From assembly GCA_947646015.1 (NCBI GenBank), contig CANSEY010000002.1:62001-126000 (forward strand): DNA of 64,000 nucleotides, given 5' to 3'. This document shows, in pieces, positions 1,052 through 63,920 of the stretch (positions within the stretch are counted from its first letter, which is position 1; the number at the start of each line of letters is the position of its first letter). The notes beneath the pieces are model-generated. The model saw only the letters and a program-made list of their open reading frames with translations, was not told the DNA's origin and did not search any database. Both the position numbers and the translations under genes were made by a program. The DNA comes from an uncultured Bacteroides sp. GTDB lineage: Bacteria; Bacteroidota; Bacteroidia; Bacteroidales; Bacteroidaceae.

Positions 1052-4189
<3,138 letters not shown>

Positions 4190-4190
4190 T

Positions 4191-4198
4191 CAAAGATA
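4191..4198 (-). promoter_or_regulatory. -7 box TATCTTTG of the beta-galactosidase gene
   Basis: The minus strand reads TATCTTTG, an exact TAnnTTTG match, about 34 bp before the start at 4156. No good -33 TTTG was found at the usual spacing. Confidence 0.65.
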
Positions 4199-4273
4199 CG
4201 TTTTTTGTCTTGTCGGACAGAGTCTTTTTGGATAAATTAGTGTAAAGTATAGCATTAATTAATGGATAAGGCT

Positions 4274-4281
4274 TATTTTTG
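4274..4281 (+). promoter_or_regulatory. Possible -7 box TATTTTTG
   Basis: This is an exact TAnnTTTG match, but it lies only 4 nt before the preferred ATG at 4286. It would imply an almost leaderless mRNA, so it may be coincidental. Confidence 0.35.
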
Positions 4282-4285
4282 CAGC

Positions 4286-6181: not shown

Positions 6182-6998
6182 GCGGAAAGAGTGGATATGT
6201 CTTATTATCGCCCTGCTTTTTGCTTTCCCATCATCGGGCAATGCCCAGTGTGAAGCAAAGAACGATGCGTTTAAGTCCGGTGAGCACGTCATGTACGAAC
6301 TTTATTTCAACTGGAAATTCATTTGGAAGAAAGTGGGACTTGCCAGCCTTACTACTAACTCGACGACTTATCACTCCGAGCCGGCCTATCGGGTCAATTT
6401 ATTGGCCATTAGCAGTAAAGAGGCCGACTTCTTCTTTAAGATGCGGGATACGCTGACAAGCGTCATGACTGAAAAGCTGGAACCCCGCTATTTTCGGAAG
6501 GGAGCCGAAGAAGGAAAACGTTATACCGTCGATGAAGCCCGTTTCTCGTTTCGGGAGGGCATGTGTTATGTCAATCAAAAACGGGTGCGTAAAGACGGGA
6601 GTATCACCGAGACGGAGCAAAGTGACAATCGTTGTATCTATGATATGCTTACTATTCTGGCGCAGGCCCGTTCGTTCGATCCAAAGGAATATACCATCGG
6701 TCAACGTATCCAGTTCCCGATGGCGACGGGGCGTAGAGTAGAAGAACAGACCCTGATTTACCGGGGAATTAAGAAGATTACTGCCGAGAACGATACTACC
6801 TATCGCTGCCTGATATTCTCACTCGTGGAATATAATAAAAAGGGAAAGGAGAAAGAGGTCATAACGTTCTATGTGACGGACGACCGGAATCACCTTCCGG
6901 TACGTCTGGATATGCACCTTAACTTTGGTTCGGCCAAGGCATTCCTGAAGAGTGTCAGTGGTTACCGACATCCTCAGACTTCTATTGTCACAAAGTGA
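6120..6998 (+). CDS. DUF3108 family exported protein
   Basis: This 292-residue protein has a long N region, then a hydrophobic core (about residues 26-41, WICLIIALLFAFPS) ending in GNAQ, a plausible Sec signal. The mature part looks like DUF3108: FKSGEHVMYELYFNWKFIWKKVG near the start, the middle segment RYTVDEARFSF, and a beta-rich C terminus with YVTDDRNHLPVRLDMHLNFGSAKA. The family's function is unknown; these proteins are periplasmic and often conserved near envelope genes. The only in-frame ATG before the signal is at 6120, inside the previous gene, so the two overlap by 62 nt and are probably translationally coupled. The 3' end overlaps the convergent thioesterase gene by 11 nt. Confidence 0.75.
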   Translation: MKIRRKRPEIVKTQTVAAAIRRKEWICLIIALLFAFPSSGNAQCEAKNDAFKSGEHVMYELYFNWKFIWKKVGLASLTTNSTTYHSEPAYRVNLLAISSKEADFFFKMRDTLTSVMTEKLEPRYFRKGAEEGKRYTVDEARFSFREGMCYVNQKRVRKDGSITETEQSDNRCIYDMLTILAQARSFDPKEYTIGQRIQFPMATGRRVEEQTLIYRGIKKITAENDTTYRCLIFSLVEYNKKGKEKEVITFYVTDDRNHLPVRLDMHLNFGSAKAFLKSVSGYRHPQTSIVTK

Positions 6999-7392
6999 AC
7001 GGAACTTCGTCTTTTTTGCGGAATACGCTCGACTCGAAGGTAGCTATCAGTCTGCCTTCCTGATCGGTTACATCTATCTGATAATAACCTGTGCTGCGTC
7101 CGGTATAGCGTTCGCGTGCTTCGGCATAGAGTGTGTCTCCGGGGCCGCTGGCGCGCAAGAAAGTGATATTGGAAGAGAGCGAAAAGGCCAATGTGCCATG
7201 TGAGTTAGCTGCTGCCGCAAGTGCCAGATCGGCTAAAGTAAAGATGGCGCCTCCCTGTGTCCGTTGTCCCGCATTCAGATGTTCGGGTTTTATTTCCAGT
7301 TTTGCTTTGCTGTATCCTTCTCGTATCTCGATCAGCTCTACACCCGCATTGGTGGCAAACAGGTCGTTTTTGAAAAATTCTTGTGCTGTCAT
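6988..7392 (-). CDS. PaaI-type hotdog-fold thioesterase
   Basis: This 134-residue single-domain protein has the typical length for hotdog thioesterases that hydrolyse acyl-CoA thioesters. The signature LNAGQRTQGGAIFTLADLALA (about 39-59) contains the GG-x4-LAD motif, with Asp55 as the likely catalytic acid. The fold's final strands are seen in SLSSNITFLRASGPGDTL and YQIDVTDQEGRLIA. PaaI relatives act on phenylacetyl-CoA pathway intermediates, but no paa gene is present, so the substrate is unknown. It lies downstream of cysS on the same strand, with a 110-bp gap that holds a large hairpin. Its 3' end overlaps the DUF3108 gene by 11 nt in the opposite orientation. Confidence 0.85.
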   Translation of the reverse strand: MTAQEFFKNDLFATNAGVELIEIREGYSKAKLEIKPEHLNAGQRTQGGAIFTLADLALAAAANSHGTLAFSLSSNITFLRASGPGDTLYAEARERYTGRSTGYYQIDVTDQEGRLIATFESSVFRKKDEVPFTL

Positions 7393-7415
7393 TTTTATAT
7401 CTGTTCTGAATTAGC

Positions 7416-7471
7416 CACAGAGGACGCGGAGCATACAAAGCTATTACTTTGTTCCCTCCGCATCCTCTGTG
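7416..7471. repeat. Large intergenic hairpin built on a CACAGAGGA repeat phrase
   Basis: Arms 7416-7431 and 7456-7471 form a 16-bp inverted repeat with one mismatch. Inside it, ACAAAG and CTTTGT add a second stem. There is no T-run on the minus side, so it is not a typical terminator. It resembles dispersed intergenic palindromes of Bacteroides. Confidence 0.7.
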
Positions 7472-7502
7472 ATGTTTTCTAAATACAACTTTCTGAAGTT
7501 TT

Positions 7503-8978
7503 TTATTTACTCAGTTTCCACTCAAATCCGTCCTTAGTATCTTTAATTTCGAATCCCAATGCAGTCAGTTCGTTACGGATCAAGTCACTGGTTGCCCAGT
7601 CTTTGTTGGCTTTTGCCTTCACACGTTGTTCCAGCAACATATCGACCACTTTTCCATAAGCGGCTTCACGTCCGTCCGACGAACCGATTTCTTCTTTCAG
7701 ACCCAGGATATCGAAGCAGAATGTATGGAATACTTCTTTCAGGTCTTTCAGGTCATCGGCAGAAATGGTGTTGTTGCCGGCAATGATATTATTGATCATC
7801 TTGGCTCCGTCAAAGAGATGTGAAATCACAATCGGAGTATTCAGGTCATCGTTCATTGCTTCAAAACACTTCGTGCGCAAGCTTTTTACATCGACGTTCG
7901 AAGTAGCTGCGGGAGTGATTTTTTCCAGACTGTCTACTGCTTCCATCAGTCGGCTCAGTCCCTTTTCTGCTGCTTGCAAGGCTTCGTTGCTGAAATCCAC
8001 CGGACTGCGGTAGTGTGCCTGTAAGATAAAGAAGCGTATGGTCATCGGGCTGTAAGCCTGAGTCAGCAATTTGTGCGAGCCGCTGAAGAATTCATCCAGC
8101 GTGATGAAGTTTCCGAGACTCTTGCCCATCTTGGTGCCGTTGATGGTGATCATGTTGTTGTGCATCCAGTAGTGAACCATATCGTCACCCTGTGAAGCTA
8201 CCGACTGTGCGATTTCGCATTCGTGGTGCGGGAAGATCAGATCCATGCCTCCTCCGTGAATGTCGAAGTGTTCGCCCAGATACTTACGTCCCATAGCCGT
8301 ACACTCGGCATGCCAGCCGGGGAAACCGTCACCCCATGGTGAAGGCCAGCGCATGATATGTTCCGGTTGTGCCCGTTTCCAAAGAGCAAAGTCGGCAGGA
8401 TTATGTTTTTCTTCCTGGCCGTCCAGCTCGCGGGTTGTATTCAGTACATCGTCCAGGTTACGTCCCGAGAGTTTGCCATAATGGTGGTCTTTATTGTATT
8501 TGGCTACATCGAAATATACCGAACCCTGACTTTCGTATGCATAGCCGGCATCCAGAATCTTTTTTACCAGTTCGATCTGTTCGATGATATGTCCCGAGGC
8601 ATGTGGCTCAATGCTGGGGGGAAGTACGTTCAGTGCCTCCATGGCTTTATGATACCGGTTCAGGTAGTATTGCACTACTTCCATGGGTTCCAATTGTTCC
8701 AGACGGGCTTTCTTGGCAATCTTATCTTCGCCTTCATCTGCGTCATGTTCCAGGTGGCCTACGTCGGTAATGTTACGCACGTATCGCACTTTATAACCCA
8801 ACCGGGTGAGATAACGGAAGAGTACGTCGAACGTGATGGCCGGACGGGCATGTCCCAGATGTGCATCGCCATATACCGTCGGTCCGCAGACATACATGCC
8901 CACATGTGGAGCGTGCAAAGGCACAAACAGCTCTTTTTTTCTATCTAAAGTGTTGTAAATCGTCAGTTGATGTTCCAT
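7503..8978 (-). CDS. cysS: Cysteinyl-tRNA synthetase
   Basis: This 491-residue class I synthetase charges tRNA-Cys with cysteine in the cytoplasm. Near the N terminus are the zinc-ligand Cys31 and the HIGH-like HLGH (40-43) within [16 protein letters not shown]. The further zinc-site motifs [10 protein letters not shown] and [10 protein letters not shown] follow. The KMSKS loop appears as KMGKSLGN. The C-terminal helical and DALR-type region ends in GFEWKLSK. Length and motif order are standard. The gene has its own -7 box 30 bp before the ATG. The upstream gap to the HAD gene is unusually rich in repeats. Confidence 0.97.
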
Positions 8979-9008
8979 AACGTTTGAGATTTATTCTGTT
9001 TTAAACCA

Positions 9009-9016
9009 CAAAGTTA
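9009..9016 (-). promoter_or_regulatory. -7 box TAACTTTG of cysS
   Basis: This is an exact TAnnTTTG match on the minus strand, 30 bp before the cysS ATG at 8978. Confidence 0.65.
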
Positions 9017-9116
9017 GAATAAATAATTTGAATTGGGACGTGTTCTGCCGGATTATTCTCTGTAAGTATATGTGTCTGATGTAAGATCGGGCCACTCATA
9101 CGAAAAATGCATTCCG

Positions 9117-9232
9117 ATCTTCCATCTTCCACCTTTTTCTGTTTACTTATCTAATTATCAACGAAATGAATGGGTGGAAGATAGCGTTTTCAAGCCGTTT
9201 ATCTTCCACCTTTATCTTCCATCTTCCACCCA
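9117..9232. repeat. Cluster of ATCTTCCA-type direct and inverted repeats
   Basis: The phrase ATCTTCCATCTTCCACC occurs at 9117-9133 and 9214-9230. Its complement TGGGTGGAAGAT lies at 9171-9182 and pairs perfectly with 9221-9232 (12 bp). A third partial copy is at 9200-9210. The block is in the 554-bp gap between the HAD gene end (9533) and cysS start (8978). No gene is seen in that gap. Confidence 0.75.
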
Positions 9233-9345
9233 CTGTTTTTGATGGATAAGGTATTGATCTGTAATTGTATATAGCGTATTATCTATCTGTTTATGCCGTT
9301 TAAAGCATTTCCTTTTCCTTAGTATCTTTAGTGAAAATGGTCCGG

Positions 9346-9449
9346 ACTTTATCTCGTCCCGCATGCCCGGGCCCATAAGCCCGCATACCTGTGCCCATGA
9401 GCCTGTATACCCGGGCCCACCGGCTCGGGTATACGGGCTGAGATAAGTT
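9346..9449. repeat. GC-rich interspersed palindrome, copy A
   Basis: A GC-rich island in AT-rich surroundings is framed by imperfect outer arms (9346-9360 and 9435-9449, ACTTTATCTC versus GAGATAAGTT). Inside, GTATACCCG (9405-9413) pairs with CGGGTATAC (9426-9434). The phrase CATAAGCCCGCATA recurs in the element at 45862-45922, about 36 kb away. It has no open reading frame. Confidence 0.75.
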
Positions 9450-9532
9450 TAGTATGATGAATGATAATATACTTATATATAACGCGTTAATATCATGGAG
9501 AAATCAACTTGCTTTCTTATTAATTTCTGTGT

Positions 9533-10369
9533 TTAAGCTGTTGTCTCCCCCTTCTCGGGTGCTTTTGTAAAGAACTTGTTTACGACCGCAGCTACACCGT
9601 CCTCCTCGTTGCTAAGGGTAATGTAGTCGGCGGCTTTCTTTACCGGTTCCTGTGCATTGCCCATGGCTACACCCAATCCGGCAAATTGAATCATTGAAAG
9701 ATCGTTGTAGCCGTCGCCTACAGCCACTATCTCTTCCCGGTTCATGTTCAGCTTGTTAAGTAAGACAGATAAAGATTGTGCCTTGTCTATTCCCTGTGGT
9801 ACCAGTTCGAGGAAGAAGGGCTCCGAGCGGTAAACACTCAGTTGACCTTGCAGTTCTACCGAAAGTTCGGCTTCAATGGGAATCAGACGATGTGGCTCAC
9901 CCACAATCAAGCACTTAGGAAGCGGCAGACGGATATCTTTCAGAAAATCCTTGGAAGGATATATCTGCATTTTATTGAGGAAAGCCTCTTTCCGGACATA
10001 CACGTCATCGGGATATTCAGTGATGATATATTGCCGGTCGTAAGTCAGGATAGGGAGTTGGTTGCGTGTGGCGCATTCGTATAGCCGAGGTATCACTTCG
10101 TCCGGCAATACATTGGCATAAACGATCTCTCCGGTACTCCAGTCGATAATTTCTCCGCCGTTATAGGAGAGGATAAATCCGCCGAACTCCTTCATGCGCA
10201 GTTCGTCGGCCAAGGGTGCAATGCCGAAGGTAGGACGTCCCGATGCAAGTATCAGTTTCACACCCTGTTGCTGTACACGTATCAGTGCTTCTCGGTTGCG
10301 TGGAGTTATCTCTTTTTTAGCGTTGGTCAGTGTTCCGTCCAAGTCGAGTACGAGGAGTTTGTATTTCAT
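9533..10369 (-). CDS. Cof-type HAD hydrolase (sugar-phosphatase-like)
   Basis: This cytoplasmic phosphatase of 278 residues belongs to the Cof/IIB HAD subfamily, which typically dephosphorylates sugar phosphates or similar metabolites. Motif I is LLVLDLDGTLTN at residues 5-16, with Asp9 and Asp11. Motif II (ILASGRP) follows, then the cap domain, and motif IV VAVGDGYNDLSMIQFAG near the C terminus. An upstream in-frame ATG at 10429 would add 20 residues before the conserved start. I reject it because a clean -7 box (10399-10406) lies downstream of it and because family members begin at MKYKLLVLDLDG. The substrate is unknown. Confidence 0.9.
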   Translation of the reverse strand: MKYKLLVLDLDGTLTNAKKEITPRNREALIRVQQQGVKLILASGRPTFGIAPLADELRMKEFGGFILSYNGGEIIDWSTGEIVYANVLPDEVIPRLYECATRNQLPILTYDRQYIITEYPDDVYVRKEAFLNKMQIYPSKDFLKDIRLPLPKCLIVGEPHRLIPIEAELSVELQGQLSVYRSEPFFLELVPQGIDKAQSLSVLLNKLNMNREEIVAVGDGYNDLSMIQFAGLGVAMGNAQEPVKKAADYITLSNEEDGVAAVVNKFFTKAPEKGETTA

Positions 10370-10398
10370 CAGTCGCTTTTGTTTGGGTTTTGAGGGTG

Positions 10399-10406
10399 CA
10401 AAGGTA
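10399..10406 (-). promoter_or_regulatory. -7 box TACCTTTG of the HAD hydrolase gene
   Basis: This is an exact TAnnTTTG match on the minus strand, 30 bp before the ATG at 10369. It decides the start codon, since the longer reading frame begins upstream of it. Confidence 0.65.
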
Positions 10407-10586
10407 GTGGTTTTGGGTATATCACCCAAACAGGATGCGAGTAAATAAAGAATGAATGATACGTAGTCTGTTTGATGCGCTTTGATACGTTTATGCTATT
10501 GGGGAATTTATTGTCTTGAAATTTTTCTTTATTTTCTTTAAAATCAGAAATAAATACACGATATTTGTATAAATAGAGAATTAGAT

Positions 10587-11978
10587 ATGAGGCCGATAAA
10601 ACTAATTTGGGGTATTGGAGGGACACTATTGGTAGCTTTATTAATAGGTTGTTATTTCTATCAGAGAAGTAATGAGATGATGCGTGTGGAATCAAAAAAT
10701 CTATTCATACAGGCATTAAAAGGTGAAATGCTGCGAATGGAAAGGGAACTGGATCTATCATGTGTGTCTATGAATGTATCGGGTGCAACGGCTCTTTGGA
10801 CCAGACTTTCTGTGAAAACTGAGTTTGGTACAAAAGATTATGTTGTAGATGTAAAAAAGGATTTGAAAAATATATCTTCTGATTTTAATGAGCGTTCTTT
10901 GCATTCTGTTGTTTGCATGGAGAAGCAGCTTTCTGCTGATACTTTGAATCGGATTTGGGCAGATAGTTTGAGAATGCGGCATATTGTCGCTAAAACCTCT
11001 GTACAGGTAGTTAGTGCCGATTCAAGTAAATGTATTCGTTCTGAAGGGAGTTGTGACAATAATTGTTTTGTATCGCCCATTTGGATTGCCTATGTCGGGA
11101 ACGAGTGTGAGGTAGAGGTTGCCGGTTTTTTATCTTCTACTTGTTGGTCGGTGATTCGATACTCTTCTTCTTCATTTGTCCTTATTGTTGGAGTGACTTT
11201 TATACTTTTTGCTTTTTTCTACTATGTGTATAAGGTGAAAAAACATTTGTCTGATTCGGAGGTTGAAGAAGAGCTTCTAAAGGAAAGGCTGGAGAAGGAG
11301 AGAGAGCGGTATCAAGATTTAGAAGAGAAACGCAGGCAATATGAACAACAATTGAATTTGCTTCAACAAGAAGAAAAAATGCGGATAAGAGAACTGAGTG
11401 ATCTACGGGAGAAGCATAAACAAAAAGAAGCTCAGATTGAAGTATTGTCAGTAGAGAAGAAACGTAGCAAAGAACAGCAAAGTATTCTTGAAAAGGAATG
11501 TCAAGAGGGTATGCTCCAAATAACGATGCTTTCCGATAAATTGGAAAAGGAAAAGATAGACCGGGGAGAGCTTCAACAAAAGTTGGCTGCATGCGAACTG
11601 CAAATAGCGGAACTGAGAAAAATAAAAGAAATGTTGGGTGAAGAATTAGTCATTTATAAACTCTGTTCAGGGTTGACTTTTGATCCTCGAAATCATATTT
11701 TGGATTGTGCCGGAAACCGGATAAAACTGGATGCTCAGGGTAGCCGGCTTTTACTCCTTTTTTTAGAGGCCTCTGAAAATAAACTATCATATGAAGAACT
11801 GCTTGAAATGATGTGGGCTGATCGTCGAAAGGATAAGAATCGTTTATGGACGGCTGTTTCTCGTTTGCGTAAAGCTTTAGCGCCTACTCGTGTTATCATA
11901 AAGGTGAAAAATGAAGGCGGGTATCAGTTAGTGCTGCCTAAGGAGAGTGATGACTTCTCGCAGAGAGAACTCTTTTGA
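10587..11978 (+). CDS. Membrane-bound winged-helix regulator of NVEALA locus 1
   Basis: This 463-residue protein has TM1 (about 7-24), a periplasmic domain (25-195), TM2 (about 196-215), a long Glu/Lys-rich coiled coil (about 222-355) and a C-terminal winged helix (about 362-452). The winged helix resembles OmpR/Trans_reg_C domains (LSYEELLEMMWADRRKDKNR, then WTAVSRLRKAL and GGYQLVLP). It has no receiver or kinase domain, so it reads as a one-component sensor that binds DNA from the membrane. The topology is the reverse of ToxR/CadC, whose winged helix is N-terminal. The periplasmic domain is homologous to the regulator at 60228: LHSVVCMEKQLSADTLNRIW (105-124) and YVGNECEVEVAGFLS (169-183). 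It is followed at once by putative operator repeats and the first NVEALA gene. The function is inferred. Confidence 0.8.
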   Translation: MRPIKLIWGIGGTLLVALLIGCYFYQRSNEMMRVESKNLFIQALKGEMLRMERELDLSCVSMNVSGATALWTRLSVKTEFGTKDYVVDVKKDLKNISSDFNERSLHSVVCMEKQLSADTLNRIWADSLRMRHIVAKTSVQVVSADSSKCIRSEGSCDNNCFVSPIWIAYVGNECEVEVAGFLSSTCWSVIRYSSSSFVLIVGVTFILFAFFYYVYKVKKHLSDSEVEEELLKERLEKERERYQDLEEKRRQYEQQLNLLQQEEKMRIRELSDLREKHKQKEAQIEVLSVEKKRSKEQQSILEKECQEGMLQITMLSDKLEKEKIDRGELQQKLAACELQIAELRKIKEMLGEELVIYKLCSGLTFDPRNHILDCAGNRIKLDAQGSRLLLLFLEASENKLSYEELLEMMWADRRKDKNRLWTAVSRLRKALAPTRVIIKVKNEGGYQLVLPKESDDFSQRELF

Positions 11979-12034
11979 TGTAAGTTCTTGTAAGGAGGCA
12001 TTTTATTGATTTTCAACTTGTAAGTTTTAGTAAG
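11979..12034 (+). promoter_or_regulatory. Putative regulator operator: GTAAG half-sites at 10-bp spacing
   Basis: GTAAG occurs at 11980, 11990, 12020 and 12030: two pairs with exact 10-bp internal spacing, set 40 bp apart, all on one face of the helix. The pairs share TGTAAGTT-x-T-x-GTAAGGA. The proximal pair ends about 33 bp before the -7 box at 12067, the usual place for an activator. The array starts directly after the regulator stop codon. Similar TGTCAG half-sites precede the paralogous peptide gene at 61444. Confidence 0.6.
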
Positions 12035-12066
12035 GAACGTTTTCTTAATAGATAGAAAAAATCGTC

Positions 12067-12074
12067 TATATTTG
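12067..12074 (+). promoter_or_regulatory. -7 box TATATTTG of the first NVEALA gene
   Basis: This is an exact TAnnTTTG match 27 bp before the ATG at 12102. There is no good TTTG at -33, consistent with an activator-dependent promoter. Confidence 0.6.
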
Positions 12075-12101
12075 TTATGTGTTACTAAAACAACCGAGTA
12101 T

Positions 12102-12323
12102 ATGAAAAAGTTTTTAAAAGCAATTGGCTGCTTTGCCATTTTTGTATTGGCTGTATTCTCGTATTTCAGAGAGCAACCTTATAAGTTGGATTCTTTGTCG
12201 TTACAGAATGTTGAAGCATTGGCTGAAGGTGAGGAATATACACATATTTCTTGTATAGGTGTAGGCTCTTTGGATTGTCCTGTTAATCATAGTGGTGTGA
12301 AGTATATATTTAAAGGATATTAA
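12102..12323 (+). CDS. NVEALA-family small exported peptide, locus 1 peptide A
   Basis: This 73-residue protein has a basic start and a hydrophobic segment (about 6-22), then LSLQNVEALAEGE with the exact NVEALA motif that names the family. The remaining C-terminal part has two cysteines (SCIGVGSLDCP). The tail is clearly related to that of the peptide at 61444 (TSCYGSGNVDCP), so the two are orthologous positions in paralogous loci. The family's function is not established. I infer export through the N-terminal hydrophobic segment and a mature tail with one disulfide. An upstream TTG at 12072 in the same frame overlaps the -7 box and is rejected. Confidence 0.82.
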   Translation: MKKFLKAIGCFAIFVLAVFSYFREQPYKLDSLSLQNVEALAEGEEYTHISCIGVGSLDCPVNHSGVKYIFKGY

Positions 12324-12555
12324 ATATTTAATTGGGTTGGGAAGGGGGTGGAACGATGCATGCTCTGGAAAAGTTTAGAATCGTCCACTCCCGGAAAAAC
12401 CTTCAAAAGAAAGGAGGTTTATAGGTTACAAAGGTAATGAATTTAAGTAAGAATCAGTAGGTGCATCATTTACTTTTTCTGCGGGTGGATGATTCCCCGA
12501 AAAAGAGACACAAGAAACAACAAAATTATTAACCTCATAAAAATGTATAAAAATT
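12324..12555 (+). other. Structured 232-bp spacer between NVEALA peptides A and B
   Basis: No gene is seen. One hairpin is clear: AACCTTC (12398-12404) with GGAGGTT (12413-12419) and an A-rich loop. A weaker GTGGAACGAT/ATCGTCCAC pairing lies upstream of it. The spacer may attenuate or stabilise the peptide mRNA. A corresponding 179-bp spacer separates the two peptide genes of locus 2. Confidence 0.4.
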
Positions 12556-12825
12556 ATGGGTAAGAAAATCTTCGCGACCTTGATAGTCGCTGTAGTCGCA
12601 ACTTTTGCAGGCTACAATATATATCAGTCACAGAGAGCGAAAAATACAATGTCGGAATTGGCGATGGCTAATGTGGAAGCATTGGCTGATATTAATGAAA
12701 CAGATTCTTCTGGGCAAACATTATATTGTTGCGGTAATGAAGATACATGCGCTAAAGGAGAAGATGAGGATACTGGCGAAGAGTTTATCATTCATGGTGT
12801 ACTATCTAGTAAAAAATGTAAATAA
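12556..12825 (+). CDS. NVEALA-family small exported peptide, locus 1 peptide B
   Basis: This 89-residue protein has an N-terminal hydrophobic segment (about 4-20), a short polar spacer, then SELAMANVEALAD with the exact NVEALA motif. The tail after the motif is acidic and has four cysteines: YCCGNEDTC and a terminal KKCK. The CCGNED core is shared with the next gene at 12840. The even cysteine count suggests two disulfides or a metal site; this is an inference. The 14-nt gap to peptide C implies co-transcription. Confidence 0.8.
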   Translation: MGKKIFATLIVAVVATFAGYNIYQSQRAKNTMSELAMANVEALADINETDSSGQTLYCCGNEDTCAKGEDEDTGEEFIIHGVLSSKKCK

Positions 12826-12839
12826 AATAGATGTAATAT

Positions 12840-13079
12840 ATGAAAAAATATATATATGCGTTCTTTTTTGCTTCTTTGATTATTGTCGCTTTGGGATTAA
12901 AGGCAAAGATAAAGAGTGATACTGAATTTTCGGAACTTACTTTAAGTAATATTGAGGCTTTAGGAATGGAAGAAACCGATGGGGCTAAAGACTATTGGTG
13001 TTGTGGAAATGAGGATGTTTGTGCAGAGGGACCTCACTATAAAATAAAAGGAAAACTTAAAGAGAATCCTTGTAAATGA
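12840..13079 (+). CDS. NVEALA-like small exported peptide, locus 1 peptide C
   Basis: This 79-residue protein has an N-terminal hydrophobic segment (about 4-20) and the diverged motif SELTLSNIEALGMEE (Ile for Val, Gly for the last Ala). The tail has four cysteines in the same pattern as peptide B: YWCCGNEDVC and a terminal NPCK. Peptides B and C look like a tandem duplication. Family membership rests on the motif, size and position; the function is unknown. Confidence 0.78.
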   Translation: MKKYIYAFFFASLIIVALGLKAKIKSDTEFSELTLSNIEALGMEETDGAKDYWCCGNEDVCAEGPHYKIKGKLKENPCK

Positions 13080-13102
13080 GTGTAATAAGAAAGGGGTGAT
13101 TT

Positions 13103-13145
13103 AAACTGCTTCATGTTAGGAATGTGTCATTGAGGCAGTTTTGAC
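13103..13145 (+). terminator. Probable terminator after the NVEALA peptide genes
   Basis: AAACTGCTTCA (13103-13113) pairs with TGAGGCAGTTT (13131-13141) apart from one G-U. The T-run after it is short (TTTTGACTTTT), so termination may be partial. Confidence 0.55.
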
Positions 13146-13328
13146 TTTTGAAAAAATACGTTTGATTTCAGTTGTATGAGCATATGTGTTATAAAGTAAA
13201 AGAAAAAAATGCTAACTTGATACAGTTTATTTTACCTCATTCTGGTTATGGTTAAGAAAATACTGGTTGATAAATATGATCTTTTTGTTTTATCCAGTCT
13301 TATTCATTATTTAATAAACTTATTATAT

Positions 13329-14396
13329 ATGTGTGAAATAAGATTTCTTTTATTTATATTATTTATGGGGTGCTTATGTGCTTGTGGGCGCGTTGACTTA
13401 AAATCTCCCAAGACCTTGTTCTCTAGCGTATCAGAGATATCAGAAGTTGAATGGAGTATAGAAGCTGATTCTTTAGCTAGAGTTGAAGGTATACAATGTA
13501 ATGATTCTGTTTTATTGGTCTTTGATTTTTATTCAGGTAAGAGTTACTCTTTATTTGATATTTATTCAGGTAAGATGATATCTCGTTTAGGCTCGATTGG
13601 GCAGGGAAGGGATGAAATACCATTAGGCGTTTTTGGATATATTGAGAATAATAGATTTTATATTTACTATGATCAGACAGGTTATATTGGCAAATTTAAT
13701 CTCGATTCTTGTTCTGTTATTCTTGACTGTCCACCTGTTTGTCTCGCTAAGTATAAAATACCCGGAGCTCAGATTTCTAAAATCGCAGTAGTGAATGATA
13801 GCCTTTTTTTAGGGGCAGGTACTTACAACGCAGAATATCAATATCTACTTTTTGATAATAAAAGTAATGTAATTGATTCTGCGGTGACTATATATAATTC
13901 GAATGAAGCGAATTTAAATATATATCATAAATTTTTGTCTAATCAGGGACGATTAAGGAAACGTCCAGGAAAATCTCAATTTGTATATTCAATAAACAAT
14001 TCATCTAACATTGATTTTTTCGAAATTAAAAACAATAAGATTAATTTGATTAAATCTTTGCGATTTAATAATCCGGAATATACACCTACCCAAGATGGTG
14101 ATTATAGCAGGGTTCTTTTTTCAGACAACAATGTTATTGGTTATATTGATATAGGTGTTACAGATAAATATGTATATACATTATATACAAATAAGAAAAT
14201 ATGTGATAATAATACTTATAATGATCTAAGTTCAACCACTGTATTGGTTTTTGATTGGAATGGAAATCCTGTGAAACAATATGAGTTATCAAAAGAGGCA
14301 TATTATATTACTATAGATAAAACATTACAAAGAATGTACGCAGTGGTGAGAAAGCCAGATATGGGTTGGACTATTGTATGCTATGCTATAGATTAA
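13329..14396 (+). CDS. BF3164-like lipoprotein (six-bladed propeller type), locus 1
   Basis: This 355-residue lipoprotein has a lipobox around LCAC (Cys19), then repeated beta-rich blades (for example DSVLLVFDFYSGKSYSLFD and SIGQGRDEIPLGVFGYI). This matches the TolB-like 6-bladed propeller family named after BF3164, common beside NVEALA genes in Bacteroides. The GQGRDE segment parallels GQGPEE in the locus 2 homologue at 62188. Its ligand is unknown; a surface or periplasmic binding role is likely. I start at ATG 13329 because the upstream ATG at 13248 adds 27 residues before the signal sequence. The sequence is more AT-rich than the housekeeping genes. Confidence 0.78.
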   Translation: MCEIRFLLFILFMGCLCACGRVDLKSPKTLFSSVSEISEVEWSIEADSLARVEGIQCNDSVLLVFDFYSGKSYSLFDIYSGKMISRLGSIGQGRDEIPLGVFGYIENNRFYIYYDQTGYIGKFNLDSCSVILDCPPVCLAKYKIPGAQISKIAVVNDSLFLGAGTYNAEYQYLLFDNKSNVIDSAVTIYNSNEANLNIYHKFLSNQGRLRKRPGKSQFVYSINNSSNIDFFEIKNNKINLIKSLRFNNPEYTPTQDGDYSRVLFSDNNVIGYIDIGVTDKYVYTLYTNKKICDNNTYNDLSSTTVLVFDWNGNPVKQYELSKEAYYITIDKTLQRMYAVVRKPDMGWTIVCYAID

Positions 14397-14453
14397 TTTT
14401 TATACTTATGTAATGATTGATTTTATTGATAATTCTTGTTGGATATATTGAGT

Positions 14454-15317
14454 ATGCGTATTTTATATGTTTTGTTTTTTCTTTTGACTTTAAACTCATG
14501 TCAAAAAGTGAAAGAAAAAGAAGTTGTCAGGCTGATGAAAGAGTGGAATAGAAAAGAAGTTCTTTTTCCTGATGATTTGCTATTTACTGTATTGGAAAAA
14601 GATACATTAAAGGAGATTCCTAAGAGTGATTATACTATAATTACTTATGTTGATTCTATTGGTTGTACGAGTTGCAAATTGAAATTGCAGAACTGGCTTC
14701 TTCTTGAAAGAAAATTGAGAAGCATAACAAATAAAAGGGTCTCTTGTCTATTTGTTATACATCCCAAGAGTAAAAAAGAGGTTAACTATATTTTACAGGA
14801 GAATCATTTTGATTGTCCTGTCTGCATTGATGATTCTGATATATTCAATAAGTTGAATAAATTTCCTGCAAATATTATGTATCAGACATTTTTACTTGAT
14901 GCGGGCAATAAAGTAGTGGCTATTGGAAATCCCATTCATAATGATAGAATAAAGAAATTATACTTGGATATTATTTCTGGAAATAAGATGACTTCTAAAA
15001 AGGGAAGTATGCAAACAGAAATAACTGTTTCTGAAACATTATTTGATTTTGGGAAAATTTCGTTTAAAGAATCACAAAAGTGTATTTTTACATTACAAAA
15101 TACTGGTAAGGCTTTACTAGTTATTGATGATGTGAATACTTCTTGCGGTTGTACTTCTGTACAGTATTCTAAAGAACCTGTCAAACCTGGGGAGTCTTTA
15201 AGAATAACTGTGATCTATAAAGCGGATCATCCGGAACACTTTAGGAAAACTATTACAATATATTGTAATGTTCCTACTTCTCCTCTGCAATTGAAAATAA
15301 CTGGAAATGCTGAATAA
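14454..15317 (+). CDS. Lipoprotein with thioredoxin-like (CTSC) and DUF1573 domains
   Basis: This 287-residue protein has a lipobox LTLNSC (Cys16). The N-terminal domain looks thioredoxin-like: a strand YTIITYVDSIG leads directly into CTSC (71-74), and a later segment matches the strand LLDAGNKVVAIGNP. From about residue 187 there is a DUF1573 domain (TLFDFGKISF, then SCGCTSVQYSKEPVKPGE), an Ig-like fold common in Bacteroidetes lipoproteins. The gene follows the BF3164-like gene. A TTG at 14436 is in frame but ATG 14454 precedes the signal directly. Given the cysteine-rich peptides nearby, a redox role on them is plausible but unproven. The locus 2 counterpart (63393) has only the CxxC part. 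Confidence 0.75.
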   Translation: MRILYVLFFLLTLNSCQKVKEKEVVRLMKEWNRKEVLFPDDLLFTVLEKDTLKEIPKSDYTIITYVDSIGCTSCKLKLQNWLLLERKLRSITNKRVSCLFVIHPKSKKEVNYILQENHFDCPVCIDDSDIFNKLNKFPANIMYQTFLLDAGNKVVAIGNPIHNDRIKKLYLDIISGNKMTSKKGSMQTEITVSETLFDFGKISFKESQKCIFTLQNTGKALLVIDDVNTSCGCTSVQYSKEPVKPGESLRITVIYKADHPEHFRKTITIYCNVPTSPLQLKITGNAE

Positions 15318-15413
15318 TTTAATGTTTATATTTAGTACTTATGATCTCTGTTGACAGATTTTATATATGTATGTCCCCTCAGCTTGAATATATGTTGCTA
15401 AATATAGGTAGTT

Positions 15414-15472
15414 AACCTTGGATCATTGCATTGGAACCTATAAATGTTATGGTTCAAGGTTGATTTTTATTT
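15414..15472 (+). terminator. Hairpin terminator after the DUF1573 gene
   Basis: AACCTTG (15414-15420) pairs with CAAGGTT (15455-15461), and GAACC (15434-15438) with GGTTC (15451-15455). The stem is followed by GATTTTTATTT. It separates the propeller/DUF1573 genes from the kelch gene. Confidence 0.6.
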
Positions 15473-15484
15473 AATATTTGTTAT

Positions 15485-16765
15485 ATGAGAAGTCTGTTTT
15501 TAATATTCTTTTTTTGCTATGTAACTGGGAAAGCCCAGGACAGAGCGTGTGTCGTGAGTGAAAAGGATAGCATTCCTCTTTCAAATGTATATATCTGTTT
15601 GAAAGATAGGAGAGTCATAGTTATCAGTGATGAAAATGGGGTGTTCTCATTAGAGAAATATGATTCGTTGTCATTGAATGATACTTTATATTTTTCTCAT
15701 ATTAATTATTTGCACAAGAAATTGTCTTATGGTGATTTAATTAAAAATAGATGTACCGTTTTTTTGAAAGAAAATAATCGGGTTTTAGAAGAAGTATCTA
15801 TTTTTAGCAATAGGCATTTAAATCGCTTTTTGCATTATGAAATATTGTCTCCATTGAAAAGAGGAGTCTATTCGTTTGCTTCGGTCTTGGTAGATGGGCA
15901 GATTTATATTGTAGGAGGGAGTACATCGTGCGGTCCCTTTCAGAGTAATATACGTTCTACTCTATTTTGGGAGAAATATAGTAACATGATGTATAGATAT
16001 GATATCAAGCAAGATAAGTGGGAGACGATCAGGCATAAGTTTAGAGAAAGGGCATATCATACGGCGGGTTATTATGATGGAAAAATTTTTATTTTAGGGG
16101 GAAAGAGATTATCTGAAACCAGAATTGTTGATTATCTGGATAATGCAATAGAAATATATGATATTAAGCGTGATACCGTCTGGACAGATTATACTAATCC
16201 GCATCAAGCGACTTTATTGGGATCCGTTGTGTATAAAGACAATATGATTGTTTTAGGCGGTGTTAAAAAGGTTTTGCAAAATAATGAAGGAGTCTATTCG
16301 GATGAAATGCATTTATGGAATTTAAAATCCGGCTATTGGTATGAATTGGGAAAAATGCCGATTGGGCAAGCTCCTGAAACAATTCTGGTTGATCATTGTA
16401 TTTATTTAATCGGAAATCGTAACGGTGGCGGACGGAGTATTGAATGTTATAACTTATTGACAGGGGCATGGGCCAATGCCGGACGTTTGTTATATCGGCT
16501 TGGCTGGCCTAGTTTGGCTTATCATAATGATATAATTTATATTTTTGAACAAGGTGTTGTACAGACGTTTAATATAAAAAGCAGGCAAGTTCGTTCGTAT
16601 ATGATAGATCTGAAATTGAAATCTCCAGCTTTGTATTACTTTGATGGGAAATTATATATTTTGGGCGGATTTTATATGGGAGATCCTTCGCGCAATGTAT
16701 ATAGTGTTGATCTGAAGGAATTTGATAAAACAGAAGTCGATTATTATTATAACAATGTAAGATAA
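15485..16765 (+). CDS. Exported kelch-type beta-propeller protein
   Basis: This 426-residue protein has a signal peptide (about 1-18, ending in GKAQ). It continues with a short carboxypeptidase-regulatory-like domain (about 20-105: DSIPLSNVYICL, SDENGVFSLEKYD). From about residue 120 there are kelch repeats: GQIYIVGGST, GKIFILGGKR, DNMIVLGGV, GKLYILGG, each with the typical hydrophobics-GG-W spacing. This suggests a galactose-oxidase-like or kelch propeller that binds ligands rather than a catalytic protein. It lies at the end of locus 1 behind a terminator and has no counterpart visible in locus 2, so its membership in the NVEALA system is uncertain. Confidence 0.75.
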   Translation: MRSLFLIFFFCYVTGKAQDRACVVSEKDSIPLSNVYICLKDRRVIVISDENGVFSLEKYDSLSLNDTLYFSHINYLHKKLSYGDLIKNRCTVFLKENNRVLEEVSIFSNRHLNRFLHYEILSPLKRGVYSFASVLVDGQIYIVGGSTSCGPFQSNIRSTLFWEKYSNMMYRYDIKQDKWETIRHKFRERAYHTAGYYDGKIFILGGKRLSETRIVDYLDNAIEIYDIKRDTVWTDYTNPHQATLLGSVVYKDNMIVLGGVKKVLQNNEGVYSDEMHLWNLKSGYWYELGKMPIGQAPETILVDHCIYLIGNRNGGGRSIECYNLLTGAWANAGRLLYRLGWPSLAYHNDIIYIFEQGVVQTFNIKSRQVRSYMIDLKLKSPALYYFDGKLYILGGFYMGDPSRNVYSVDLKEFDKTEVDYYYNNVR

Positions 16766-60227: not shown

Positions 60228-61283
60228 ATGGTAATGTCTTGGGGGAAAACAATTCTCGGTTGTTTGATTGGAGGGTATGCCCTTCTTGGTTTGTTAGGGG
60301 GAAACTATGCATATGAACAAGAAGTAAAGGCATTGCATGTATATGCGGATAGTGTTTTTCATGAAGCTTTTCATGTAGAATTGCAAAAACGAGGTATGGA
60401 TCAAGTGGAAAGTTGGAGATATGGATGTGAAGACTCTTTCGTCTCTTCAGTGGATACAGCCTTCAAAAAAGTTACTATACAGGACGAGTACGGTACGTAT
60501 AGCTTTCGGGTTGATGCAATGAAAATTCGCAAAAATATCGTGTCTTCCCCTGGAGAGCAAGGACTGCATACTGTTGTTTGTTTAACACATCCTTTGAGTG
60601 TAGATACGTTGAATATACTATGGAGGACTATGTTGAATGAAAGGCAGAAATTTCCTATTCGTACAGGATTAAAATTAACTGTTTCTGATAATAATGGAGT
60701 GGTCCGCTCTTCTTTTAGTCCGGATAGCCTTTCTTGTTTATCTTATTCTTCGATATTTACTTATTATGTAGGCTATAGATGTGAAATTGAAATCTTAGGG
60801 TTTGTATCTATATCTTTTTTCTCAGTATTTGTAAATCTAGTTTGGACTCTTATTGGAGTTGTTGTTGCTTTTGTGCTTTGTGTGATTCTTACAATCTATA
60901 TATATAAGTTGTCTGTTCACCCTCCTAAAATAAAAGAGGTTACTACTTATATTCAGACAGTTGCTGTTAAAAAGGGGACTCTGCCTATATACGATTTGAA
61001 AGATGATCTTAAACTGGATGTTGGTAAAGGTGTATTGATCTGCGAAAACATGGAAGTATCTCTTACTCCCCAGCAGCGTGTTCTTTTAGTTTTGTTTATT
61101 AAGGCTGAGAATCATACTCTGTCTATGTCTCAAATTATGGCAGATGTTTGGCCGGGAAAATCTATTTCTCCCGATTGTTTCCATAAAGCAATAGAACGTT
61201 TGCGTGATTTGTTAAGGCAGCTTCCTATGACCATACAAATTGAATATTTAGGGGAGGAAATTTATCAGATGCAAATTTTATAA
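60228..61283 (+). CDS. Membrane-bound winged-helix regulator of NVEALA locus 2
   Basis: This 351-residue protein has TM1 (about 6-25), a periplasmic domain (26-195), TM2 (about 196-227) and a C-terminal winged helix (about 262-351, LTPQQRVLLVLFIKAENHTL and SISPDCFHKAIERLRDLLRQ). It is homologous to the regulator at 10587: LHTVVCLTHPLSVDTLNILW (113-132) and YVGYRCEIEILGFVS (180-194). It lacks that protein's long coiled coil, so TM2 joins the winged helix by a linker of only about 35 residues. No kinase or receiver is present. I chose ATG 60228, though ATG 60234 is also possible. A sensor role for the NVEALA genes downstream is inferred. Confidence 0.8.
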   Translation: MVMSWGKTILGCLIGGYALLGLLGGNYAYEQEVKALHVYADSVFHEAFHVELQKRGMDQVESWRYGCEDSFVSSVDTAFKKVTIQDEYGTYSFRVDAMKIRKNIVSSPGEQGLHTVVCLTHPLSVDTLNILWRTMLNERQKFPIRTGLKLTVSDNNGVVRSSFSPDSLSCLSYSSIFTYYVGYRCEIEILGFVSISFFSVFVNLVWTLIGVVVAFVLCVILTIYIYKLSVHPPKIKEVTTYIQTVAVKKGTLPIYDLKDDLKLDVGKGVLICENMEVSLTPQQRVLLVLFIKAENHTLSMSQIMADVWPGKSISPDCFHKAIERLRDLLRQLPMTIQIEYLGEEIYQMQIL

Positions 61284-61309
61284 TGTTTGTATTTGAGAAT
61301 TTTGTATAA

Positions 61310-61370
61310 GCTTTCGGATCTGCTTTCGGAGGTTTATATAGGCTTTTATTGTTTGTCAGTGAATGTCAGT
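61310..61370 (+). promoter_or_regulatory. Putative operator repeats before the locus 2 peptide gene
   Basis: TGTCAGT occurs at 61354-61360 and 61364-61370, exactly 10 bp apart, 48 to 58 bp before the -7 box. A second pair, GCTTTCGGA at 61310-61318 and 61322-61330, is 12 bp apart. The TGTCAGT pair matches the TGTAAGT half-sites of locus 1 (consensus TGT[AC]AG). Confidence 0.55.
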
Positions 61371-61411
61371 CGATTCCTTCTTGTTGTTTTTTTATTCCTT
61401 TTCTTTTTCCA

Positions 61412-61419
61412 TAGATTTG
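61412..61419 (+). promoter_or_regulatory. -7 box TAGATTTG of the locus 2 peptide gene
   Basis: This is an exact TAnnTTTG match 25 bp before ATG 61444. The upstream in-frame start at 61363 lies before this box and is rejected. Confidence 0.6.
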
Positions 61420-61443
61420 CAACCGTTAAAAACAAATCAGAGT

Positions 61444-61671
61444 ATGAGAAATTTTTTTGTAAGTGCCTTTTTATTATTAGTCGGTATTGCCGTTATGACT
61501 GTTTGCCGAATGAATAATAAGCAATATTTGAGTGAATTGGCTTTAGTGAATGTTGAAGCGCTTGCTACAGGTGAAGGAGATGTTCCTACAAGTTGTTATG
61601 GCAGTGGTAATGTAGATTGCCCTATAAGCGATAGCAAAGTTTCCTATGTTATGAATGGGCGCAGTTTTTGA
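61444..61671 (+). CDS. NVEALA-family small exported peptide, locus 2 peptide A
   Basis: This 75-residue protein has a hydrophobic N-terminal segment (about 3-19), then SELALVNVEALATGE with the exact NVEALA motif. The tail has two cysteines: TSCYGSGNVDCPISDSKVSY. It matches peptide A of locus 1 in position, size and tail (SC-x-G-x-G-[SN]-[LV]-DCP). Function is not established. The tail may be released after export and form one disulfide, by inference. Confidence 0.82.
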   Translation: MRNFFVSAFLLLVGIAVMTVCRMNNKQYLSELALVNVEALATGEGDVPTSCYGSGNVDCPISDSKVSYVMNGRSF

Positions 61672-61850
61672 AAGAGTATTAATTTGAAAAGGAGTGAGTT
61701 GTATTATTAGTGTTTAGTAAACCCACTTTGAATCAGTCCAAGGAGGGACTAAGATATGCTTCAAATATAAAATAAAACAATTAGAGATAAGAATGGGAGG
61801 AAAGTTCTTCTCACTGATTTCTTGAAATATGAATTTTAAAAAAAATATTT
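61672..61850 (+). other. Spacer between the two locus 2 peptide genes
   Basis: This is a 179-bp spacer without a gene. It has a small hairpin AGTCC-x-GGACT around 61736-61751. It corresponds in position to the 232-bp spacer of locus 1. Confidence 0.35.
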
Positions 61851-62117
61851 ATGAATTATAAGAAGAAAATTATTTGTCTTTTGGCATTATTTACAATTGT
61901 TGTTGTAAATGTGCTTAATGTCGTTGTGAAATCGGATGATGCTGAGACATTAACTCTATCTGGAATAGAAGCTGTAGCAGCTACTTATGAAAACAGTCCG
62001 GGAAACTATACTGGAGCCCATAATCAATATTGTACAAGTCCCAAAAATGCTACAGGATGTGTTTCGGATCCTGATCCAACCCGCACTTGTTCATATTCAA
62101 TTTTTTGTAAAAAATAA
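61851..62117 (+). CDS. NVEALA-like small exported peptide, locus 2 peptide B
   Basis: This 88-residue protein has a hydrophobic N-terminal segment (about 7-25) and the diverged motif LTLSGIEAVAATYE (Gly for Asn, Val for Leu). The tail has four cysteines: QYCTSPKNATGC, TRTCSYSIFCKK. It shares the four-cysteine count with peptides B and C of locus 1 but not their CCGNED core. Family membership rests on the motif position and neighbourhood. It is followed by a strong terminator. Confidence 0.7.
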   Translation: MNYKKKIICLLALFTIVVVNVLNVVVKSDDAETLTLSGIEAVAATYENSPGNYTGAHNQYCTSPKNATGCVSDPDPTRTCSYSIFCKK

Positions 62118-62137
62118 TAGTTACTTGTTCAAATGTT

Positions 62138-62170: not shown

Positions 62171-62187
62171 CTAATAATATGTTAGTT

Positions 62188-63381
62188 ATGAAGTACTTGA
62201 ATTTGTTTATATTCGTGTTGTTGTTGGCAGGATGTAATCGACCTGTTAAACACTCCGATATTATCCAAGCCGATACTATGGTAAGTATCATACCCCAAGA
62301 GGATACTATCACATTATCTGCTCTCTTTTCTAGATGTGAAATTGTAAAATTGAATGATATTGTTTTAGCGTCAATAAATAAAGTATTTAAGTATGATTCT
62401 TTGTGGATTGTGCAAGGAAAGTCTGATCAGGGTGGGGTCCATTTGTTTAATAATGAAGGCCGATATTTAAAAACTGTTTTGAAATGGGGGCAAGGGCCTG
62501 AAGAGGCATATGATATTTGGAGTATTAAACTATTAGATGGATCTATCTATTTATTGATTAATTCTGGAACAGAAGTTGTGGAATATTCTTTGCAGAAACA
62601 AAAAATGGTAGAGCGCTTTCGGCTACCGTCTGAGATACTTTCAGCTACAGATTTTGTTGTTGATAATGGTGGAAATTATATATTCTTAAAATCGATCTCC
62701 CGAGAGAAAAAAAAGGAAGAGTATAAACTTTATGTGTATAATAAGAAAGAGGGGACAATCGTAAATAGAATATTGAATATGGATAAAAAGTCTAGTGAGT
62801 ATATTTCTTTTGATCAAAGTGATTGTTTATATCGTGTTCAGGATGAAATCTATTATTACGAGGTTTTTAGAAATGGTATTTGTCGGTTATCTGCTAATGA
62901 TATGACTGGATACATCGCTTTTAAACAAAATGAATATACTTTTCCGGAAAAAGAACTTTATAATGAAGATCATACATTTCAGTCTTTTATAGATGTTTGT
63001 GAAAATAGTCCTTTTATTTGGGCACATCGTAATTTATTTGAAGGAGAGCGCTTTGTGAGTTCTACTTATATGTATAAAAAAGAACTGTTTTGGAATATTA
63101 TAGATAAATCTGATTATAGCGTACATTCATATAAATGGGTATATGATGACTTGATATTAAATGAGGTTGTCCCTGTTGAAGATTATTTATATCGTGCTAA
63201 TGTTCAGGAGAATATCCATTGTTATACATTGTCTTTTTACGATTTTGATAGAATTATGCAGTTGAAAAAGAAGTGTAAAAAAAGCGTAGGAGAAAAGTGG
63301 ATGGTAAAACTAGATGATATGTTAGATGAAAATTCAAATGATATAATAGTTTGTTTTTATGAAAAAAAAGTAATGATATAA
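62188..63381 (+). CDS. BF3164-like lipoprotein (six-bladed propeller type), locus 2
   Basis: This 397-residue lipoprotein has a lipobox LLAGC (Cys16). Repeated blades include SIPLNDIVLA-like strands, DSLWIVQGKSDQGGVHLFN, LKTVLKWGQGPEEAYDI and GGNYIFLKSISREKKK. It is homologous to the lipoprotein at 13329 (GQGPEE versus GQGRDE). ATG 62179 is an equally plausible start, three residues upstream. It is followed 11 nt later by the CxxC protein gene. Ligand and location (periplasm or surface) are unknown. Confidence 0.78.
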   Translation: MKYLNLFIFVLLLAGCNRPVKHSDIIQADTMVSIIPQEDTITLSALFSRCEIVKLNDIVLASINKVFKYDSLWIVQGKSDQGGVHLFNNEGRYLKTVLKWGQGPEEAYDIWSIKLLDGSIYLLINSGTEVVEYSLQKQKMVERFRLPSEILSATDFVVDNGGNYIFLKSISREKKKEEYKLYVYNKKEGTIVNRILNMDKKSSEYISFDQSDCLYRVQDEIYYYEVFRNGICRLSANDMTGYIAFKQNEYTFPEKELYNEDHTFQSFIDVCENSPFIWAHRNLFEGERFVSSTYMYKKELFWNIIDKSDYSVHSYKWVYDDLILNEVVPVEDYLYRANVQENIHCYTLSFYDFDRIMQLKKKCKKSVGEKWMVKLDDMLDENSNDIIVCFYEKKVMI

Positions 63382-63392
63382 TTTTTTATTCG

Positions 63393-63920
63393 TTGTTAGC
63401 ATTGTGTCTATTTACTAACTGTCTGTTTATAGGATACTACTATTACCAACAAAACAGGGAAGTGCTGTTGGGGCAAGAGTTGGAACATCAGAAAAAACAA
63501 AATTATGAATTAATAGTTAATCAAATAGAATCAGGGATTATTCCACATGTAATTTCTGATAAAAAAGAATTTGCAGGATATTTTGTCCTTGTGTTTCCTA
63601 ATGGTATTTGTGATGTTTGTAATAAATGGTTGTTTAAACAAATCTCTGAATTATCCAGTACTTCGGATTTAGTGGTGGTTGTCCCTGATAAATTGAAGAA
63701 GAATATGGAAATCTATAATACCGTTTATAAACTTAAGTTGTCGTCTATTTTTTGTTCGGAAAAGTATGCCATCTCTCAGGAGGAATTTAAAGATATGACA
63801 TATATATTCTATTGCTCAAAAACTGGAACGGTTTTATATCCTTTGGCACTTCATCATAAAAATATAGACTTGAACTTGTACTTTAAATTAGTAAAGTCAA
63901 TAGATTTAGATTTCTTGTAA
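63393..63920 (+). CDS. Membrane-anchored CxxC (thioredoxin-like) protein, locus 2
   Basis: This protein of about 175 residues has an N-terminal membrane anchor (about 1-18) followed by a Glu/Lys spacer. A strand YFVLVFPNGICDVCNKWL places a CDVC motif at 73-76. The layout resembles the N-terminal part of the locus 1 protein at 14454 (IITYVDSIGCTSC). There is no DUF1573 domain. No ATG is available after the upstream stop; the best start is TTG 63393, or ATT 63381 overlapping the previous stop. A redox role is inferred from CxxC only. The window ends 80 bp later. Confidence 0.65.
   Translation: MLALCLFTNCLFIGYYYYQQNREVLLGQELEHQKKQNYELIVNQIESGIIPHVISDKKEFAGYFVLVFPNGICDVCNKWLFKQISELSSTSDLVVVVPDKLKKNMEIYNTVYKLKLSSIFCSEKYAISQEEFKDMTYIFYCSKTGTVLYPLALHHKNIDLNLYFKLVKSIDLDFL

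Follow-up and report, generated by a model that had tools for sequence, protein, structure and literature searches.

Described peptide systems and the NVEALA locus

In the Blp loci of streptococci, peptides of the inducer and of the effector kind have a leader in common, a cognate partner gene lies behind the peptide gene, partner genes also occur as orphans, cassettes are exchanged and a single enzyme processes all the peptides. The NVEALA locus described here appears to resemble the Blp loci in these respects, yet to be made of unrelated parts. It comprises six genes on the plus strand at positions 10587 to 15317 of the window, which is the whole 64,000-nucleotide stretch of an uncultured Bacteroides sp. 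that was analysed (G000:C2:62001-126000; assembly 74.7% complete). These genes encode a membrane regulator, three small peptides, a six-bladed propeller lipoprotein and a CxxC lipoprotein (D), and a sequence check placed them where a sequence-only reading of the window had put them. The locus is apparently an undescribed modular peptide system, widespread in gut Bacteroides and relatives. By appearance it would serve as a weapon or for signalling, under the control of a signal and with peptide cassettes that are swapped.

Blp loci have a double-glycine (GG) leader, a C39 ABC exporter and a two-component pair, whereas here a Sec-type A-x-A leader is accompanied by an S26 signal peptidase and the regulator is a one-component membrane protein. 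The partner is also a propeller lipoprotein of ~360 residues, the peptides are acidic and the host is Gram-negative. A GG-leader/C39 system was considered and rejected: the leaders end in N-[VI]-E-A-L-[AG], and among 715 unlabelled open reading frames (ORFs) of the fetched regions a search by pattern, rather than profile, gave no C39-like protein and three ABC-type ATPases. The immunity lipoproteins NisI and SpaI offer a parallel for the proposed binding of a locus's own peptide by a lipoprotein, but belong to another family than the six-bladed propeller. ToxR, CadC and TcpP are, like the regulator, membrane proteins that combine a periplasmic domain with a winged helix of the ToxR type, and ToxR (8b4b) was the best Foldseek match. 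The winged helix of ToxR is N-terminal, whereas that of the regulator is C-terminal, behind a second transmembrane segment and a coiled coil.

Bacteroidetocins, class II peptides of Bacteroidales, are likewise small exported peptides with a conserved leader and a variable product; according to PMC10352776 their leader is predicted to be of the GG type and they have a PCAT, whereas no C39 pattern was found here. BfUbb of B. fragilis is a 76-residue ubiquitin-like protein with a 27-residue signal sequence (PMC5705921). Its region is comparable in that a secreted toxin processed by signal peptidase I is encoded in a strain-variable region beside divergent beta-propeller genes; a pattern search found no mutL or ubiquitin-like gene near the searched loci. 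BT0662 (O-antigen ligase), BT0664 (6-bladed propeller) and BT0667 (lepB) are listed in PMC10434189 and are perhaps a B. thetaiotaomicron copy of the locus; nothing was drawn from the expression values of that paper. NVEALA was not named in the literature searched, which covered few subscription papers, and searches on BF3164, PF15869, PF17170, DUF5128 and combined topics gave no recognised description of the system. Text matches to PF14055 came, by title, from work on malaria or enzyme prediction, where the term is probably a gene name.

Two peptide classes and their partner genes

The neighbourhood, on whose recurrence in other genomes the sequence-only reading had staked its proposal of a functional unit, was found across Bacteroidota, and the membrane regulator, exported-looking peptides, propeller and CxxC lipoprotein form a real unit. 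PF14055 (NVEALA) was present in 33/60 sampled Bacteroides genomes and 58/301 genomes of the family (both at E <= 0.001), and in 16/198 genomes of the order at E <= 0.01. Stretches of up to 20 kb surrounding NVEALA matches were collected, ORFs were called with a simple script, and genes were labelled by profiles that were grown from window and neighbour proteins in iterations over those very stretches. The regulator profile picked up two or more response regulators as well as several fragments, and a few ORFs carry both the transglutaminase-like and the propeller label. Among the resulting 67 regions, which include two slices of the window (one repeated by L089) and several regions from one genome, NVEALA peptides were labelled in 66, propellers in 67, CxxC/DUF1573 proteins in 49, regulator-type proteins in 48, transglutaminase-like lipoproteins in 44, S26 peptidases in 38 and Wzy_C+TPR membrane proteins in 30. 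A frequent order is regulator, type A peptide, (propeller), type B peptide, propeller, D, transglutaminase-like, S26, Wzy_C. A propeller gene is next on the same strand after 124/154 NVEALA-family ORFs (66 regions; median gap 72.5 bp), so the arrangement goes beyond chance. The complete set also occurs in Sphingobacterium haloxyli of the order Sphingobacteriales. Among relatives, Phocaeicola vulgatus ATCC 8482 has regulator, type A, D, type B, propeller, transglutaminase-like, S26 and Wzy_C+TPR genes at one locus (L174). The S26, Wzy_C+TPR and transglutaminase-like genes of complete loci, the pairing of tail and propeller and the swap at NVEALA had no part in the sequence-only reading.

That reading had also taken the three peptides to be of one kind. 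Peptide 1 is instead of type A, the companion of the regulator, and peptides 2 and 3 are of type B and go with the propeller. The classes were split by a tail pattern devised after the peptide list had been viewed, with slight variants between analyses; gene position was not used. The type A tail is short (CxGxGSxDCP...KV), with exactly two cysteines in 36/41, and the type B tail has a greater length and varies in sequence; 55/112 such tails contain four cysteines and 21/112 contain six. Type A adjoins a regulator in 41/41 cases (28 on the same strand, 13 divergent; 38 regulators full length, 3 fragments) and type B in 2/113. The gene after type B encodes a propeller in 101/113 cases and a DUF4221 protein in 3/113. 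The pattern was repeated in named loci found by S26 alignment alone (the best 80 of 545 relatives), where a regulator adjoins A in 19/23 and B in 1/92, and the gene behind type B encodes a propeller in 75/92 and a DUF4221 protein in 6/92. With 14 loci on previously seen records removed, a regulator adjoins A in 10/13 and B in 1/74.

The preferred reading, judged to fall slightly short of an even chance, is that A is the cognate peptide of the regulator, that B and its propeller are exchangeable effector/immunity-like cassettes and that S26 cuts the leader. The peptides bear one kind of N-terminal leader, predicted to target the membrane, with NVEALA at its end. The S26 peptidase of the module would cut after the final Ala and release a Cys-rich tail of ~36-43 residues to the periplasm, where the CxxC/DUF1573 lipoprotein may handle its thiols. 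The type A tail would then bind, as ligand, to the periplasmic domain of the ToxR-like regulator encoded next to it and turn the locus on. The type B tail would act as an effector, possibly secreted and killing, that the lipoprotein encoded behind it binds and neutralises. Whole B-propeller cassettes would move from locus to locus and from strain to strain, and the crossovers would fall at NVEALA. A fuller formulation, put forward tentatively, is that Bacteroidota have a peptide conflict system of a new class that regulates itself: a dedicated S26 would mature a whole family of leader-sharing disulphide peptides, one of them the pheromone of a receptor with a C-terminal winged helix and the others polymorphic effectors with propeller immunity lipoproteins, and cassettes would recombine at the leader/tail junction.

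The direct case for cassette exchange is the comparison of the window with the sister genome G509. Identity of 96.8% over 4000-12686 ends one base short of the end of the peptide 2 NVEALA codons (12687) and resumes at 94.5% over 15124-16765; the replaced block holds the peptide 2 tail, peptide 3, the propeller and most of D. The G509 cassette has a 95% match to another locus of the window's own genome. The leader and flanks are conserved while tail and propeller differ, which argues for cassette swapping. Among 143 leader-covering alignments, 129 end between -12 and +18 nucleotides from the NVEALA codon and 13 continue through the gene, which shows a sharp leader/tail junction.

Tail and propeller vary together. 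From 123 peptide-propeller pairs, 112 were left after removal of short propellers, tails or leaders and 110 after removal of duplicates. Median propeller similarity was 0.62 in the 120 tail-similar pairs versus 0.03 otherwise (Mantel 0.13, p 0.001; the genomes are related, so this and the following p values do not come from independent events). Leader similarity gave no signal against propeller similarity (-0.02). Within type B alone, propeller similarity was 0.48 versus 0.03 (Mantel 0.079, p 0.002), a correlation that is weak yet beyond chance. For 36 pairs of A tail and sensor domain, the Mantel correlation was 0.55 (p 0.001) and the partial correlation given the winged helix 0.35. Propellers without a peptide are common (119/233 orphans) and B without a propeller is rare; similarity above 0.3 to the paired propeller of another region was found for 70/119 orphan and 67/114 paired propellers.

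These data also bear on pure signalling or kin recognition, in which A signals via the regulator, B is a strain-specific signal and the propeller is its periplasmic or surface receptor, with no killing. Acidic, disulphide-type tails suit such a role, as do the frequent propeller behind type A (23/41) and the tail-propeller co-variation expected of ligand and receptor. It is considered unlikely, since the peptide is seldom without a propeller and the propeller often without a peptide, which is the asymmetry of effector and immunity. Beyond the families named above, no neighbour family clustered with more than five members, so a recurrent signalling output was not seen. The effector/immunity reading is favoured because B is seldom alone, propellers often are, the partners match and the cassettes move.

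The S26 peptidase and the leader

The S26 class is linked to NVEALA: it was present in 27/33 NVEALA-positive and 0/27 NVEALA-negative Bacteroides genomes (Fisher p 1.5e-11), and regulators in 26/33 and 0/27, with presence thresholds set by the author on bit scores (above 330 for S26, above about 130 for the regulator). Among the 36 better genomes, 21 were NVEALA-positive, 18 of these with the S26 class. Two members of the module family matched PF10502 (E 1e-27 and 5e-31), and the motifs P[ST][DE]SM and KRC...GD (Ser/Lys dyad) occur in 32/32 members of 270-330 aa among 39 labelled. The window's own genome was scored as lacking the class (best 122 bits). On its contig C11, a shorter S26 gene (240 aa) lies in a locus that also encodes propellers, Wzy_C and transglutaminase-like proteins and a peptide of the NVEALA kind, so that processing would act in trans.

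The motif fits the -3/-1 rule of signal peptidases, to judge from aligned peptides. A profile alignment with unrestricted -3 and -1 residues gave, for the first set, 159 rows from 154 members, of which 4 were gapped. In the 155 ungapped rows position -3 is A in 147, S in 4, V in 2, C in 1 and G in 1; position -1 is A in 151, G in 3 and P in 1; and position -2 is L in 144. In 83 ungapped rows from named loci new to the set, -3 is A in 81 and V in 2, and -1 is A in 65, S in 13, T in 3, G in 1 and C in 1. Signal peptidase I (SPase I) usually cuts a few residues past the hydrophobic stretch. The long constant spacer found here, 20-24 residues from hydrophobic stretch to motif (10th-90th percentile), is unusual in a signal peptide and may explain the existence of a dedicated peptidase. 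The same spacer, with the fixed N (149/155) and E (151/155 ungapped rows) that exceed the needs of SPase I, would also suit NVEALA as a retention or sorting signal, with membrane-anchored peptides acting on envelope partners and S26 serving another substrate. The strict small-residue rule at -3/-1, including S at -1 in the 13 rows of the named set, and the co-occurrence with S26 make this quite improbable.

Within 10 kb of S26 at the 80 selected loci, an NVEALA-type peptide was found at 56, a propeller at 64, Wzy_C+TPR at 67, a transglutaminase-like gene at 51, D at 47 and a regulator at 25. With the 14 repeats removed, the counts out of 66 were 42, 50, 54, 39, 34 and 15. Such a high share of Wzy_C+TPR (67/80) and transglutaminase-like genes (51/80) recalls envelope display, in which the peptides would serve at the surface as structural parts or adhesins that these proteins glycosylate or cross-link and the propeller holds, with pilin-like variation by cassette exchange as an escape from phages or immunity; a dedicated peptidase and a constant leader before a variable tail follow the logic of pilin systems. 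Display is nevertheless rated a poor candidate: type A peptides are bound to the regulator (41/41), the tails are short, and in none of the three scanned proteins did the transglutaminase-core match reach the cut-off of Pfam.

Several observations weigh against the effector/immunity reading. An NVEALA-type peptide was not seen at 24/80 S26-selected loci, and regulator, S26, Wzy_C+TPR or transglutaminase-like genes are lacking in some of the 67 regions; the last three are absent near both window loci. The median distance from the hydrophobic stretch to the proposed cut is 23 residues. The fold search with the sensor domain of the regulator (residues 26-193) gave no clear match, PDC/Cache included. 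The correlation of A tail with winged helix is nearly as high (0.48) as that with the sensor domain and is expected under plain co-inheritance too. Tail-similar pairs are mostly A-A (85/120, median 0.65; B-B 33/120, median 0.48), the B-only correlation is weak and the p values come from related genomes. A propeller follows type A in 23/41 cases, so propellers are not for B alone. The tails of both types are acidic (median net charge -2) and rather hydrophilic, which differs from classical cationic bacteriocins.

If the effector/immunity reading is true, a peptide system for communication and competition would be present in roughly half (33/60) of the Bacteroides genomes sampled and in relatives. 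PF14055, a large number of orphan propeller lipoproteins and a second signal peptidase class would thereby gain a function, and the ligand of a ToxR-like regulator would be directly testable in gut commensals.

Genes of the window loci and their surroundings

Features of the two NVEALA loci in the window (positions are those of the window; PF14055 gathering cut-off 27 bits)
Feature	Position	Strand	Evidence or detail
Locus 1 regulator (R)	10587..11978	+	Trans_reg_C E 8.9e-10, residues 376-448
Regulator layout			transmembrane segment ~8-25, periplasmic alpha/beta sensor ~26-193, second transmembrane segment, coiled coil, winged helix 355-451 of 463
Peptide 1, type A NVEALA, tail CIGVGSLDCP...	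12102..12323	+	PF14055 37.4 bits
Hairpin just 3' of type A gene	12345..12393	+	66-nucleotide window -23 kcal/mol, z -2.7
Peptide 2, type B NVEALA	12556..12825	+	PF14055 50.0 bits
Exchanged cassette	12687..15123	.	replaced in sister genome G509
Peptide 3, type B NVEALA, tail CCGNED... related to peptide 2 tail	12840..13079	+	PF14055 33.7 bits
TolB-like six-bladed propeller lipoprotein (P)	13248..14396	+	PF15869 70.9 bits; likely start 13329
CxxC (CTSC) + DUF1573 lipoprotein (D)	14436..15317	+	PF07610 108.1 bits; likely start 14454
Locus 2 regulator	60228..61283	+	29% identical to locus 1 regulator
Locus 2 type A peptide, CYGSGNVDCP...	61444..61671	+	above PF14055 cut-off
Locus 2 type B-like peptide, motif SGIEAVA	61851..62117	+	no PF14055 match
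Locus 2 six-bladed propeller lipoprotein	62188..63381	+	PF17170 81.4 bits; Pfam family differs from locus 1
Locus 2 CxxC protein (CDVC)	63393..63920	+	no Pfam match, so no DUF1573

The regulator of locus 1 has an N-terminal hydrophobic segment and a winged helix of the ToxR/OmpR type; its transmembrane limits were set by inspection. PADLOC gave weak coiled-coil matches in it and nothing else. The PF14055 cut-off was reached by the peptides at 12102, 12556, 12840 and 61444. In peptide 2 the leader, with NVEALA at its end, is encoded by 12556-12687 and the variable Cys-rich tail by 12688-12822. The likely starts of the propeller and D yield the lipobox signals LCAC and LNSC, respectively, as read by eye. 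A sequence search of the PDB gave no match for the propeller and one marginal match for D. Of the description of the last protein as thioredoxin-like/DUF1573, DUF1573 was borne out, and the thioredoxin-like part amounts to the CTSC motif and a sub-threshold match to StoA_CxxC (16.2 bits against an NCBIfam cut-off of 210).

The hairpin is kept in the A-B spacer, upstream of type B genes, at several loci of the own and the sister genome. A terminator scan found no terminator-like site, and no terminator-like T run was found at the hairpin, which is therefore perhaps no plain terminator. The element ACTTTTTCTNCGG, upstream of B genes, was exact in 8/237 loci only.

The set at 60228-63920 had been called paralogous. 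Its gene order agrees, but it is a looser copy in which the regulator, the propeller family, the second peptide and the last protein differ. Elsewhere in the window's own genome, NVEALA loci lie at C2:266-274 kb and C3:44-46 kb, and 11 of the 15 matches in this genome are above the cut-off.

Both window propellers have a lipobox and match Pfam families of the TolB_like/DUF5128 type. Of 240 propeller-labelled ORFs with a length of 250 aa or more, 159 carry the lipobox pattern; among unlabelled ORFs the count was 43/287. An acidic surface-export signal on the propellers was not supported, with 0.12 acidic residues per position after the lipid cysteine, the same as in other lipobox ORFs; D has 0.29. 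Two tandem propeller-labelled ORFs lie just past the window (G000:C2 ~134.7-137.0 kb; L089:16700-19001) with no labelled peptide adjoining, and arrays of 6-10 consecutive propeller genes with few or no peptides occur in L107, L108, L139 and L140.

A Prevotella locus (L216:15689-20544) encodes seven peptides of the NVEALS/NVEALC type; five of these have related tails and stand in tandem ahead of one propeller. A small Cys-rich, secreted-looking peptide without NVEALA (L086:7095-7388) precedes a propeller lipoprotein (7394-8137), and the peptide-propeller pairing may thus extend to other leader types. A 70-residue remnant of a regulator winged helix (L087:2810-3022), flanked by a type A gene and a piece of a propeller, marks a decaying copy of the locus. 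Downstream of locus 1, a Kelch-type protein is encoded at 15485-16765 of the window; it is conserved in the sister genome and lies outside the exchanged cassette.

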